Assembly (NCBI GenBank): GCA_029055625.1
Contig: JAIDCY010000030.1
Span: 1 to 64,000, forward strand
Source: Ruminococcus sp.
Lineage (GTDB): Bacteria > Bacillota > Clostridia > Oscillospirales > Ruminococcaceae
Direction: 5' to 3'
Length of the DNA stretch: 64,000 bases
Below are positions 46,885 through 52,612 of the stretch, one piece after another. Position 1 is the stretch's first letter, and every line of letters starts with the position of its first letter. Below the pieces are notes generated by a model. The model worked only from the letters and a program-made list of their open reading frames with translations. It was not told the origin of the DNA and made no database searches. The position numbers and the translations under genes are program-made.

Positions 46885-49800
46885 TCAAACGTTGTTTAAA
46901 TCTGCAGATGTTATCGGGAGTTGGTCAGCACTGATGAGTTCAACACACAGACACTGAATAGCAAGAGCGTCAGTAGGTGTTATACCACTTGAGCCGTTGT
47001 CTGTAACGTCCGCATTGAGTTCACCCTGTGCGGAGAGTTTATATTCCGCTTTATCCGGATTTGCGATTGACTGCATGATAAGTACGGCATCGGCAAGTGT
47101 TACCTGACCGTCAACGTTAGCGTCACCCCAAAGAATGTCGCCACTCGGTTTAGTTGTCGGGTCTTTATCGTCCGGCTTTGTTGTAGGAGGTGTAACTGTC
47201 TGTGAGCCGTCAGCCTTAGCAGCTTCAGCGTTCATGTAAGAAGAAATCCATACAAGTGGTGAGTTCCAGTTGATTGTGATTTCGTTTACTGACCATGCTT
47301 CAGCGTTATCAACGTAGCACTTCTGGTTTGCGAGTGTGCCTCTCTTATAGCCGAGACCGCCGATGTATGGGTCTTGCATACCAGCACCAGGACCACCTGA
47401 CATTACGCCTGCCGGTACCTTCGGGAATGTCGGGTCAACGCCGTTAGCCCAGAATCTGTGGTGTGGCCACTGGAGAGTTGTACCCATTTCTGTATCGCCG
47501 TAGCCTGATACATATGAGAAGTCAAGACCATTACGTCCGAAGATGTAGTCCATAGCTTCAGCAGCACCGTTCATGTAAGTAACGTCCTTTGTTGCATCGT
47601 AAGCGTATGCCATTACGATAGCGTTATTTATAACGAATGAGTTTGAGCCCCACTCATAACCTGTTACCTTGATACCTGCTCCGATGTTTACGCTGTCTTC
47701 AAATGTAGCCGGTTTGTACGGAATACCCATACCTTCTTTGCTCATCTGTGCCATGTATTCGTCAGCGGCACTCTTGATAGATGATTCTATAGCATCTCTG
47801 TCGGCACCTGTTACCTTATCGCTGAGGTAGAGTGAAAGTGTACCAAGACCGGAAGTACAGCCCCAGTTGAATGAGCTGAATGAACCGTTGTTTTCACCAC
47901 CGCCGAGGTTGGTTGTTATGCTGAATGCCTTATCGTTGCTTGTACTATCATTTGAGTTGCTGTAAGCCTTGAGGTCATTGTAATATTTTTCGTCGCCTGT
48001 TGTTGCGTAGAGTTCGCAGGCTGCCCAGTACTTATCGTCTTCAACGTATGTATCGCCGTAAGCACCACCACCGATTGCCTGATCCATAGGAGCGTAAAGC
48101 GGATTAGAAGTATCGTAAGGTTTGAGTTCCTTAGTTGCTGCATCATATGCTTTCTTAGCAGCATCAAGGCACTTCTTAGCGTATGCGTCATCAATGCCCT
48201 CCCAGAGACGTGCAGCCTGTGCAGCAGTAGCGGCGAGGTTGTAAGTAGCTGCGTACGTCGGCGGTTTTACGATACGTGTACAGTTTTCGAAACCTTCGTA
48301 CTTCCATGAGTGGATAGCAAGACCGGTCCACTTGTGGTCGTGCATCTTGTGGTAAACCATGCCCTCATATTTGCCCCAGTATGGGTCTTTTGAATCTACC
48401 ATCATAGCGAGCATGAAATCAAGTTCAACCTTTGCTTCGTCGAGAATGTTAGGAGCACCGTTGCTGTTTTCAGGTACGAGAACTGCGCCATTATCGCCCC
48501 ATATAGCATCATTGCCGTTCTTCTTCGACATTTCATAAGCGTTCTGGAGAGTCCATACGGAAATACCACCGTTAACTACGTATTTACCGTGGTCACCGGC
48601 ATCGTACCAACCACCAGTTACATCTATTTCATATGACTTGTCGCCGTCGAACTCAGAAGAATATGACTTCTGCCACTTGGACTGTACATATGCCTTATCC
48701 GGATTGTGTCCGGCTTCTTTATGTGCGAGTGTGCTTGTATCGCCGTTCTTGATGTATTCCGCTTCAATCGGAACGCCTGAACGGTTCTGATAGAAATAGC
48801 TGATAGAATCTCTTACGAGTTCTTCGCTGTAAATGTTTTCGTCAATGCGGAACTGGTGGCTCTGGTTCATTACGTAATCCTGGTCTGTTACCCAGTTATG
48901 CCACATAACCTTGTCGCCGTCCATTGTTGTATCATAAGCGGCTTCTTTCATACCAGACCTTGTGCCTGATACGCCTGTTGTATCCTTTACAAAGATTGAA
49001 TATACGCCGGGAGTGGTGAATTTTGAGAAGTCAATAATGTGTACATTAGCACCACTGTCCTTGTACTTGTCGCCTTCTGTTGCACCTGTACCGGAGTTCG
49101 GGTCAGCACCGAATACTGTTGTCTGACCAGTAAATACAGCACTTCCGGAAGCGTCACGGATTTCAAATTCAAGAGGTGAAGAAGCGTCTGTTACATAAGA
49201 TGCTTTCTTCTGGAGGTTCGGATAGTAACCAACCTGATTAAGACGTACGTTAGATTTCGGTCTGATTACGCCGAATTCGTTTGTCTTATCAAAGTCGTTT
49301 TCATTGCCTGTTGTATCTTCAAGTGTGAGGTTATCGAACTTGAGAACTGTTCCTGCAGGGAAGCAGTCTACAGGCTGGTGCTCACCCTTACCGCCGTAAT
49401 GGAAAGCCCATTCTGCAACGTCGAGGGTCTGATCAGCTGTGAAAGTAGCATCAAATGAGTTTTTACCTGCATTGATAGTTACGCAGTCCCATGACTGGTT
49501 GAAGTCCTTACCGTTGCTACCCATGTCGTTATGCCATACTTCTTTAGTACCTGAATAGTCGCCGATTTTTGTATACATCTGACCAGCATTGGAAGCATCT
49601 ACTTCCCAGTGTACCTTATATGTATGACCTGACTGAATTTTAAGTCCTCTGTGACGGAGCTGTAAGTCCCATCTTGATTCAGGACCATGAATTTCTTCGA
49701 GTGTTACGTTGTATGTACCGTCTGCGATTTCGAAAGTCTGCTTAGCTGGGTTAGTTTCGCAGGTATGCCACGGAAGACCGATACCCTCATCGAAGGTGGA

Positions 49801-49920
49801 CTGTCCGAGCTGGTCACCGGCGAATGCTCCCATAGGAGCGATTACGGCTGTAGCGGCAGAAAATGCCATAGCTGTAGCCATAAGTCCACCGGCAATTTTT
49901 TTACCAAATGTCTTATGCAT
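46885..49920 (-). CDS. GH9 cellulase: CBM4-like N-terminus, Ig-like domain, GH9, dockerin
   Basis: DVTGGWYDAGDHGKYVVNGGISVW; NILDEAKVELDFMLAM; PHHRFWANG; NEITINWNSPLVW; dockerin GDANVDGQVTLADAVLIMQSIANPDK. Confidence 0.95.
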   Translation of the reverse strand: MHKTFGKKIAGGLMATAMAFSAATAVIAPMGAFAGDQLGQSTFDEGIGLPWHTCETNPAKQTFEIADGTYNVTLEEIHGPESRWDLQLRHRGLKIQSGHTYKVHWEVDASNAGQMYTKIGDYSGTKEVWHNDMGSNGKDFNQSWDCVTINAGKNSFDATFTADQTLDVAEWAFHYGGKGEHQPVDCFPAGTVLKFDNLTLEDTTGNENDFDKTNEFGVIRPKSNVRLNQVGYYPNLQKKASYVTDASSPLEFEIRDASGSAVFTGQTTVFGADPNSGTGATEGDKYKDSGANVHIIDFSKFTTPGVYSIFVKDTTGVSGTRSGMKEAAYDTTMDGDKVMWHNWVTDQDYVMNQSHQFRIDENIYSEELVRDSISYFYQNRSGVPIEAEYIKNGDTSTLAHKEAGHNPDKAYVQSKWQKSYSSEFDGDKSYEIDVTGGWYDAGDHGKYVVNGGISVWTLQNAYEMSKKNGNDAIWGDNGAVLVPENSNGAPNILDEAKVELDFMLAMMVDSKDPYWGKYEGMVYHKMHDHKWTGLAIHSWKYEGFENCTRIVKPPTYAATYNLAATAAQAARLWEGIDDAYAKKCLDAAKKAYDAATKELKPYDTSNPLYAPMDQAIGGGAYGDTYVEDDKYWAACELYATTGDEKYYNDLKAYSNSNDSTSNDKAFSITTNLGGGENNGSFSSFNWGCTSGLGTLSLYLSDKVTGADRDAIESSIKSAADEYMAQMSKEGMGIPYKPATFEDSVNIGAGIKVTGYEWGSNSFVINNAIVMAYAYDATKDVTYMNGAAEAMDYIFGRNGLDFSYVSGYGDTEMGTTLQWPHHRFWANGVDPTFPKVPAGVMSGGPGAGMQDPYIGGLGYKRGTLANQKCYVDNAEAWSVNEITINWNSPLVWISSYMNAEAAKADGSQTVTPPTTKPDDKDPTTKPSGDILWGDANVDGQVTLADAVLIMQSIANPDKAEYKLSAQGELNADVTDNGSSGITPTDALAIQCLCVELISADQLPITSADLNNV

Positions 49921-49939
49921 TTTAAGTGCCCTCCCTTAA

Positions 49940-50050
49940 AAATATAGGTTTAACTATAACGCAGTGCCAGTGCAAACACTGCGATTATATTCTGATTCAT
50001 GGCAAGCGGTTTGTCCTTAAAGGACTTGCACCAAACCGTTTAACTTACCA
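49940..50050 (-). promoter_or_regulatory. Structured 5' UTR element upstream of GH9 (candidate cis-regulatory RNA)
   Basis: 7-bp stem CGGTTTG/CAAACCG (50032-50038 with 50007-50013) enclosing GTCCT/AGGAC; GCAAG (50025-50029) complementary to CTTGC (50002-50006); second 7-bp stem CGCAGTG/CACTGCG at 49960-49983. Confidence 0.55.
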
Positions 50051-50055
50051 CTTTT

Positions 50056-50084
50056 ATTATATTATATCCCGTAAAAAAAGTAAA
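50056..50084 (-). promoter_or_regulatory. Promoter of the GH9 gene
   Basis: Minus strand TTTACT - 17 nt - TATAAT. Confidence 0.55.
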
Positions 50085-50224
50085 TAGCTTTTCTGAAATT
50101 CGTTGATTCCGCTAATATTGCTTTACGGATTTTGTGCATATTTCACAGTATCGGGTAAACATATAAGTGAGATGAACACCCTTATATTAAGTAAATATGA
50201 ATAAGTTATATTTTATTTATTTAT

Positions 50225-52612
50225 TTATTTATCAAGAATGCTCACGTCGAACGGGAAGCCGTCAATAATATTAACCATCAGACACTGTATAGCGAGTGCG
50301 TCTGTAGGAGTAACACCATCACCGATATTTGCGACATCCGCATTTTTAGTACCCTGTTCAGTAAGTTTATACTTTTCTTCATTCGGATTTGCGATTGACT
50401 GCATTATAAGTACGGCATCTGCGAGACTTACCGTACCGTCTTCATTGGCATCACCAAGTAATGTCTTGTCGTCACCTGCTCCGGTAGGTTTAGTAGTAAG
50501 TTCAGGCTTTGTAGTTGGCTGTTGTGTAAGGTCGGGTTCTGTACCGTCGGGTTCTGTACCCCATACAAGAACGTCGTCAACATACATTGTGATATGCTTG
50601 TTGAGTGAATCGGGTTTCTTGAGGTCTGTAGCATCTTCCACGCCCTCGTATGACCAGTCATTTGACGGATTCCATGCACCTTTAGTTGATTTGCCGTCAA
50701 TAGCATCAGGGATAGAAATTCTGAACTGCACTTCATCTCTGTGTTCGCTCTGACCGGTAGGCTGTATCGCTCTTCCGTCCTCAAACGCTATCTCGACGTA
50801 ATAAATATTACCGTCGTATTGTACAGGTTTTTCCGAGGCTGTGGCGTAACCCTGCTGACCCTCCTGATATTGCTGTGAACCTACTTTTACCGTAATATCA
50901 TCTACAGACAAACCGGCTTCAAGAAGTTCAGAAACATCAAAGTAATATCTGTACTTTATATTCTTTGCTACTCGTGTAGGCCATGCGGTATGATTCATCG
51001 CCCACGCTTTAATCTCGGTGTAACTGTCACCGCTACCGTTGAGTACCGCCGCAATCTCCCATTCCGACCACTTCGGAGTTTCAGGCTGTGGGAAATCGGC
51101 AAGAGGTTCACCGCCGTAATCGTCAATCATCGCACAGAGTGTGGCGGTATAGCCTGCGTTGTAGTCTACCGCTACTTCTGTATACTGGAAGTCTGAAACC
51201 TTATAATTTCCGTATTTTCCCTCACTGTCCGGTCCGCCTATCAATGCACCGTAAAGCGTATGTGCGTATTCCGTCTGCCAGCCTTCAGAACTCTCTTCCT
51301 GTCCTAACTCGTTCCAGTGGTCATCATGTATGCCGGAAGCTGTTCTGTGGTGTATCGCTGACGGTGATTTCTCACCCATACCGAGTACGTAACTTAAACC
51401 CTCTTCATTATCTCCGAAACAGTAATTCATCTGACTATCCGCCCATTTGTCGAACTTATCCGACAGTGTGGCATCATCTTTGAAAATCGTATCACTTGCG
51501 AGTTTTGCAATCCATGCGGTATTAGTTGCGTGACGTAAGCATCCCCACTGTGTGAGCCATGACAGACCTTTTGACGTTATCTTACCCTCAAACGGTTTTG
51601 AATCCTCACCCATCCAGTACTTCAGATGTCTTGCGATATGGTCAACCCACTCTTTTTTACCGGTATTCTGTGCATACAGTAACGCCGCCGCCTGTGTGGT
51701 ATCGTCCCAGCAAAGACCCCATGTATATTTTCTGTCGCTGGACTGGTTTTCCGTCGGGAAGTTTGGTATATAATCCTTTTCGCAGATGTCAAGGTATTTC
51801 TGTTCACCGGTAGCCATATACAACCAGTTCGCAGCGTACATACAGTCATCAAGCCATGAGGAAGTGTTATACATACCCGACATACCGCCTATATCCTTAC
51901 AATCCCTTGTTTTGTCAGCGAGTTCAAAAAGACTTATTGCGTGTTCGAGATACTCCTTCGCTTTTTCGGGTTGTTCGTCCTTGAAGATTATGTAACCCTC
52001 TGCCAGACACGCCGCCGCCAATGCCTCTACGGATGCGTTTTCCACTTCGTCGTATGGTCTTTCCCAGTCGTCGTTGTTGAGATGATGTTTTCTTAAATAA
52101 ACCTCCGCACTGCACCATATGTTATGGTCTGTAGAACCGCCGGTGAAGTCTCCGATTGTTCCTATTACCTTATCGCCTCTGTCGCAACCAAGCACGAAAT
52201 CCATAGCCCACTGTATATTATTCCGGTAACTCTCACCGAGACCGGCTTTATCAACGGCATCTTTATACTGGATGTATCCCCACGCCATGAGTGAAGCACT
52301 ATATGCATTTGTCAGATTGAATTTAAAATGGTCTCCTGCATCGAACCAGCCACCCGGTACAACGTCCGTTTCGTTGCCGTCCTCGTCAACCATAGAATCC
52401 GCACGCCACGGGACATTATTCCATTCCGGCAACTTGCCTGATTGCTGAACCTCATAGAAAAACATTGACTTCTGTAAAGCCTCTGCATAGTTGTACTTCG
52501 ATTCCGCTTTTGCGGTGGTAACGCTACCATTCGGCATATACACGGCAAGTCCGGCGGAAAGTGCCAGTGCCGAAGCCATAGCGGTAATCTTCTTTAAAAT
52601 CATAGATTTCAA
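50225..52612 (-). CDS. GH9 endoglucanase with CBM3c-like module and dockerin
   Basis: YNYAEALQKSMFFYEVQQSGKLP; PGGWFDAGDHFKFNL; HHRTASG; DYNAGYTATL; CBM3-like region; dockerin GDANEDGTVSLADAVLIMQSIANPNE. Confidence 0.95.
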   Translation of the reverse strand: MKSMILKKITAMASALALSAGLAVYMPNGSVTTAKAESKYNYAEALQKSMFFYEVQQSGKLPEWNNVPWRADSMVDEDGNETDVVPGGWFDAGDHFKFNLTNAYSASLMAWGYIQYKDAVDKAGLGESYRNNIQWAMDFVLGCDRGDKVIGTIGDFTGGSTDHNIWCSAEVYLRKHHLNNDDWERPYDEVENASVEALAAACLAEGYIIFKDEQPEKAKEYLEHAISLFELADKTRDCKDIGGMSGMYNTSSWLDDCMYAANWLYMATGEQKYLDICEKDYIPNFPTENQSSDRKYTWGLCWDDTTQAAALLYAQNTGKKEWVDHIARHLKYWMGEDSKPFEGKITSKGLSWLTQWGCLRHATNTAWIAKLASDTIFKDDATLSDKFDKWADSQMNYCFGDNEEGLSYVLGMGEKSPSAIHHRTASGIHDDHWNELGQEESSEGWQTEYAHTLYGALIGGPDSEGKYGNYKVSDFQYTEVAVDYNAGYTATLCAMIDDYGGEPLADFPQPETPKWSEWEIAAVLNGSGDSYTEIKAWAMNHTAWPTRVAKNIKYRYYFDVSELLEAGLSVDDITVKVGSQQYQEGQQGYATASEKPVQYDGNIYYVEIAFEDGRAIQPTGQSEHRDEVQFRISIPDAIDGKSTKGAWNPSNDWSYEGVEDATDLKKPDSLNKHITMYVDDVLVWGTEPDGTEPDLTQQPTTKPELTTKPTGAGDDKTLLGDANEDGTVSLADAVLIMQSIANPNEEKYKLTEQGTKNADVANIGDGVTPTDALAIQCLMVNIIDGFPFDVSILDK

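Follow-up and report, generated by a model that had tools for sequence, protein, structure and literature searches.

A conserved two-hairpin RNA leader, apparently undescribed, at a GH9 cellulase locus of Ruminococcus

The leader of a GH9 cellulase gene found in the window (the whole stretch of 64,000 nucleotides analysed) is, as judged from comparison with its relatives, a conserved cis-acting RNA, roughly 100 nt long, that occupies the 5′ end of the mRNA of this major cellulase, belonging to a real, gene- and genus-specific structured RNA family which is apparently undescribed. Among the cellulose degraders of the rumen and gut Ruminococcus holds a leading place, and, to our knowledge, little is known about the control of cellulase expression levels in this genus. 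Its two hairpins, which appear to grip each other, are kept in almost every species even where a different enzyme stands behind them, and the leader is therefore probably an RNA element for control or protection of a kind not yet described. Compact, with an exact base-pair prediction (GUGC with GCAC), lacking an Rfam entry and serving a single cellulase locus across the genus, the leader could account for a high output of the GH9 enzyme and be usable as an expression part. That it stays the same as enzyme bodies are exchanged shows separate evolution of the expression signal and the catalytic cargo at this locus.

The GH9 locus and its expression signals

An orthologue search places the closest orthologues of the gene (Table 1) in Ruminococcus. 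The start codon is an ATG at position 49920 (minus strand), and the encoded enzyme has a dockerin-like C-terminus, as read from the sequence, with no Pfam match for dockerin. The promoter is almost unchanged across 102 leaders and predicts a transcription start at about positions 50048–50051 (minus strand), in agreement with the initial annotation, which had placed the element just after a predicted promoter; a start downstream of the element, which would have spoken against a structured leader, is thus not what the promoter predicts. Indeed, the first paired base of P1 is found at a median of 4 nt downstream of the −10 hexamer in the leader set, and therefore the message probably starts in or beside P1. 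In all of the 103 leaders examined for it, a strong Shine-Dalgarno sequence (GGGAGG or AGGAGG) lies 13–16 nt upstream of the start codon.

Table 1. Features of the GH9 leader and gene in the window
Feature	Position	Strand	Sequence or composition	Basis or remark
Promoter	50056–50084	minus	−35 TTTACT (50084–50079), 17-nt spacer, −10 TATAAT (50061–50056)	consensus scan; sigma-70-type
HP1	49999–50051	minus	P1-P2-P3	fold of HP1 alone; covariation in all three helices
P1 of HP1	50051–50044 / 50006–49999	minus	GTGGTAAG / CTTGCCAT	also found de novo by RNAalifold
P2 of HP1	50038–50033 / 50012–50007	minus	CGGTTT / AAACCG	
P3 of HP1	50025–50021 / 50017–50013	minus	GTCCT / AGGAC	
5′-side bulge of HP1	50026–50032	minus	GGTGCAA, containing GTGC (50031–50028)	HP1 strand of proposed kissing helix
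HP2	49955–49989	minus	TATAA (49989–49985), bulged T, CGCAGTG (49983–49977), loop TTTGCACTGG (49976–49967), CACTGCG (49966–49960), TTATA (49959–49955)	
Motif in HP2 loop	49969–49974	minus	TGCACT	complement of GGTGCA (HP1); 6 bp, 7 in window
Shine-Dalgarno	49929–49935	minus	GGGAGGG	read in sequence; no conserved stem masks it
GH9 gene	46885–49920	minus	1011 aa, secreted; CBM4_9, CelD_N (Ig-like), GH9	ORF and Pfam

Structure and conservation of the leader

Starting from 26 orthologous loci whose true starts were located, the leader being clearly homologous in 22 of these, a covariance model (R1) was built from 23 sequences, and an alignment of 65 distinct sequences fitted to the covariance model was analysed for covariation. 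The leader almost certainly comprises two hairpins, HP1, formed by helices P1, P2 and P3, and HP2, as inferred from the relative amounts of paired cells in this set: 91.9% over HP1 and HP2, against 29–46% with the partners slid. For HP2 considered separately the proportion amounts to 98.8%, with A-U to G-C double changes as well as G-U intermediates. Clearly, the helices covary, since 222 double-changed cells are observed versus 72 ± 9 in shuffles, which, together with the promoter found just upstream, bears out the earlier description of a promoter-proximal structured 5′ UTR; covariation, whose absence would have told against it, extends across the genus. As this alignment had been fitted to the model, the count was redone on an unfitted MAFFT alignment, which contains 13 pairs with double changes, corresponding to 52 cells versus 20 ± 4 in shuffles, and RNAalifold, when run without structure input, recovered P1 and HP2 de novo. 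The arms of HP1 vary freely in sequence among leaders; the stem and loop of HP2 are almost invariant, being more conserved than pairing alone requires, and have the consensus UAUAAyCGCArUG/CAyUGCGUUAUA with loop UUUGCACUGG. Outside the strands of the proposed kissing contact few unpaired bases of the leader are conserved.

All complementary words listed in the initial annotation are present on the minus strand, and several of these correspond to the helices just described. From CGGTTTG/CAAACCG (50038–50032 / 50013–50007) the core is retained as P2, one pair shorter, conserved and covarying; GTCCT/AGGAC is P3 and CGCAGTG/CACTGCG is the stem of HP2, and both are conserved and covary. A distinct outcome resulted for the pairing of GCAAG with CTTGC (50029–50025 / 50006–50002), whose second pair is found in 15 of 65 sequences and whose score is no better than that of shuffles. 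This pairing is unsupported because CTTGCC constitutes the 3′ strand of P1, which pairs with GTGGTAAG in an outer stem that had been overlooked. In the alternative proposed inside HP2 (CAGTG-TTTG-CACTG) the central pair fails in 44 of 65 sequences, and the words of the TATAG/CTATA stem are indeed present downstream, but in a poorly conserved stretch. The competing alternatives are thus not conserved in relatives, and with them falls the argument that mutually exclusive stems denote a switch. As to the pseudoknot, a contact of this type is supported, involving GGUGCA and UGCACU, but the version formed by GCAAG and CTTGC is not conserved.

Contact between the two hairpins

We consider it likely, from the conserved complementarity of the two strands, that HP1 and HP2 dock via a kissing helix of 6 bp, in which RGUGCR in the HP1 bulge or loop would pair with UGCACU in the HP2 loop. 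In the window, this contact would be established between GGUGCA (50032–50027) and UGCACU (49974–49969), and GTGC, within the bulge GGTGCAA, is 94% unpaired in the predicted HP1 ensemble. GUGC is the sole tetramer common to all 100 distinct HP1 regions, and its complement, GCAC, is invariant in the HP2 loop, which reads UGCACU in nearly all leaders. On the leader tree no changes are noted at the four positions of GUGC, versus 8–24 at flanking positions, and 96 of 99 leaders have a purine, opposite U, immediately before the tetramer (position −1). Considering the 6 bp of RGUGCR with UGCACU, 99.5% of 389 cells pair in register, in comparison to 17–61% when slid. The core being invariant, it cannot covary, and the support for the contact comes from conserved complementarity and not from covariation. 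In three leaders (L117, L134 and L137) P3 is lost and GUGC lies in a plain hairpin loop, which indicates that the exposed motif is conserved rather than the scaffold. A kissing helix longer than 6 bp, such as AGUGCACAC with GUGUGCACU in L073 and L084, is restricted to few sequences and was discarded as a general feature.

Besides the leaders without P3, a second, independent line of evidence adds weight to the contact, namely the coupled loss of its two strands. The HP2 loop motif is missing in four orthologues. In three of these (L017, L139 and L140), which are nested in two separate clades, GUGC is also gone; the exception is L016, in which the loop motif of HP2 is lost and AGUGCG is retained. 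In L016, L017 (R. albus-type), L139 and L140 HP2 is rebuilt with a loop devoid of UGCACU, and in R. albus the element may exist in another version.

Distribution of the leader

Of 125 genomes belonging to the genus, 107 match R1, among them 65 of the 68 which are at least 90% complete, with E-values down to 4e-20. All positive genomes contain a single match, except G071, which has three. From the 105 matches that were checked, 103 had enough downstream sequence to test the gene, and a homologous GH9 gene, whose protein usually begins with MHKK, follows in every one of them. Outside the genus no leader was found in 398 family-level and 394 order-level genomes, searched under stricter filters and leaving aside members of the same genus. 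A search of the window's own genome yielded no second site, and elsewhere only the paralogous GH9 copies of G071 appeared, so that a regulon in which the same leader precedes other cellulosomal genes was rejected. These two extra GH9-associated copies in G071 (L102:3598-3693 and L138:96-158) correspond to HP2 and have no recognisable promoter-HP1 part; this suggests that HP2 can persist on its own, at least for some time.

The earlier impression that no known riboswitch class is represented agrees with the Rfam analysis: with Rfam 15 nothing in the window reaches the gathering threshold, sub-threshold matches being implausible, and in eight relatives no family is obtained at E≤0.1, so that a known riboswitch or other Rfam family was rejected for the window and these relatives. 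An open-literature search returned no publication on this leader, an absence which is weak evidence.

Replacement of the enzyme behind the leader

Unexpectedly, the GH9 proteins encoded behind the leader fall in two deep clades (37 and 69 rows, separated by a branch of 0.93) with an identical CBM4-Ig-GH9 layout; the two types of body diverged anciently and share about 45% identity. In fact, leaders that are 91–97% identical precede proteins that are 42–53% identical, and the enzyme type changes 18 times on the leader tree, or at least 11 times counting only well-supported branches. Leader recombination could add to this count. On either side the flanks can be aligned at about 80–90%, and identity breaks around 13 nt after the start codon (L177/L178 and L179/L178), homology being resumed towards the end of the GH9 domain. 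Replacement has thus repeatedly affected the enzyme body, whereas the leader before it and the 3′ part after it stayed constant. This synteny points to body replacement over leader recombination. Exchange pairs are L177 and L178, L179 and L178, L182 and L183, and L184 and L185.

Possible roles of the leader

We propose that the docked two-hairpin leader acts as an mRNA-protecting 5′ terminus, an explanation which, taken as a whole, we regard as evenly balanced between right and wrong; that protection is the main function is put forward tentatively, at slightly under even chances. HP1 would begin at the transcription start or only a few nt from it, and its docking to HP2 would generate a compact, base-paired 5′ terminus shielding the message from 5′-end-dependent RNases (RppH/RNase J-type) and from nearby endonucleases. 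The A/U-rich linker would keep the strong Shine-Dalgarno site accessible, and the leader would in this way set a high and long-lived expression for whichever GH9 body holds the locus. Its presence at one locus only, and its retention while the enzyme body is exchanged, count in favour of protection, as do the position of P1 close behind the −10, the lack of an anti-Shine-Dalgarno sequence and of conserved competing pairings, the rarity of U-tracts, and the strong Shine-Dalgarno at a nearly constant position. Further, blocking the 5′ end of an mRNA stops RNase J1 (PMC5419742), and the aprE leader mRNA of B. subtilis is stabilised by a 5′ stem-loop, according to the passage of a paper citing that work (PMC3997798). 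On the other hand, stem-loops inserted from cellulosomal genes in C. cellulolyticum altered an upstream but not a downstream reporter (PMC4423207), the coupled loss of the two kissing strands is judged from four lineages, of which one (L016) is an exception, and the extra copies in G071 retain HP2 with no recognisable HP1. In addition, the excess conservation of HP2 is a hint that a protein, a ligand or an RNA may bind it, and a pure protector would need no such partner.

This excess conservation is what keeps a regulated switch as the main rival, in which a small molecule (e.g. a cellodextrin), a protein or a small RNA would make or break the kissing contact, altering translation or decay of the cellulase mRNA. 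Kissing loops are found in several riboswitches. Cellulase genes of R. flavefaciens are substrate-controlled, although growth substrate had a smaller effect on the GH9 protein than on GH48 (PMC3672088). However, anti-Shine-Dalgarno sequences of 6 nt within HP1 or HP2 occur in 0 of 102 leaders and a U-tract (TTTTT) after HP2 in only 7 of 102. Both of the outputs typical of riboswitches are therefore absent, and a terminator or anti-Shine-Dalgarno output was rejected. A BglG/LicT-type RNA antiterminator was discarded as well, since only HP2, followed by TTATAGTTAA, scores weakly as terminator-like and the U-tract is rare in relatives. Moreover, no alternative pairing is conserved, the unpaired nucleotides conserved in HP1 number only about 4–6, which is little for a ligand pocket, the single target locus in a single genus is unlike most metabolite riboswitches, and no Rfam match was obtained. 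A regulated switch is thus judged unlikely, and the protecting 5′-terminal leader is favoured over a metabolite riboswitch. Even less probable is the more specific idea that the kissing switch forms an RNA class of its own, which would respond to a signal of cellulose breakdown or to a dedicated factor and would control one expression slot for exchanged GH9 enzymes.

An effect on translation, in which the docked hairpins would serve as a ribosome standby or spacing platform boosting initiation at GGGAGGG, would be in line with the very strong Shine-Dalgarno sequence at near-constant spacing in all leaders, as well as with HP2 ending a short A/U-rich distance upstream (median of 55 nt from GCAC to ATG); yet the linker between HP2 and the Shine-Dalgarno differs in length and sequence among leaders, and such effects rarely demand conserved loop sequences, which renders this role improbable. 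A constraint at the DNA level, with the inverted repeats being transcription factor operators and the RNA structure incidental, seems very improbable: the arms change through G-U wobbles and asymmetric pairs in P1, P2 and P3, which keep RNA pairing and break DNA symmetry, the arms of HP1 are free in sequence, and the −10 precedes the element. In favour of such a constraint, high conservation extends to the promoter and to a palindrome further upstream, so that the region is under selection at the DNA level too. Finally, the leader of the window is unremarkable when folded singly (z = −1.56, with 14 of 200 shuffles folding equally well), as would be expected from a chance fold in an A/T-rich leader, a reading of negligible probability that is refuted by the covariation and the genus-wide recovery.

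Relation to known leaders

The leader resembles the aprE leader of B. subtilis and the 5′ stem-loops of ompA and papA in E. coli, which have a stem at or near the 5′ end, as predicted for the GH9 leader, and a strong Shine-Dalgarno downstream, and which belong to highly expressed messages, aprE encoding moreover a secreted hydrolase, as does the GH9 gene. These are described as stem-loops, whereas the GH9 leader consists of two hairpins with an apparent kissing contact kept throughout the genus; we know of no deep covariation or second docked hairpin in the former. In the purine and cobalamin riboswitch aptamers a 5′ leader contains two hairpins whose loops are joined through a short GC-containing helix, as is proposed for the GH9 leader. 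Unlike these, the GH9 leader has no multi-way junction, Rfam match, terminator or anti-Shine-Dalgarno platform, and it is confined to one locus in one genus. On the cellulase side, the cip-cel stem-loops of Ruminiclostridium (Clostridium) cellulolyticum, which are associated with selective RNA processing and stabilisation (PMC4423207, PMC10311766), are RNA structures on GH9/GH48 cellulase messages thought to set transcript abundance. Those are mostly intercistronic, located at 3′ ends and at processing sites within a polycistron, whereas the GH9 leader is promoter-proximal, has its own promoter and presents conserved loop sequences.

The upstream region

The palindrome mentioned above is a near-palindrome, TTTTGTG-N-TGCACAAAA (TTTTGTG-N-CACAAAA), located at 50130–50147 (minus strand), around 65–85 nt upstream of the −10 and highly conserved across leaders; it resembles a Crp/Fnr-type or other operator. 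Immediately 5′ of the −35, the stretch ATTAGGAAAATAnACGAAATTCCAAAAAGC at 50087–50117 (minus strand) is strongly conserved in nearly all species and is a possible regulator or UP-element site. Further upstream, a second GH9 gene (GH9-CBM3-dockerin) is found in tandem at 50225–52612 (minus strand), and in relatives a hairpin resembling an intrinsic terminator, with a T-run, lies between the two genes, which in the window appears degenerate.
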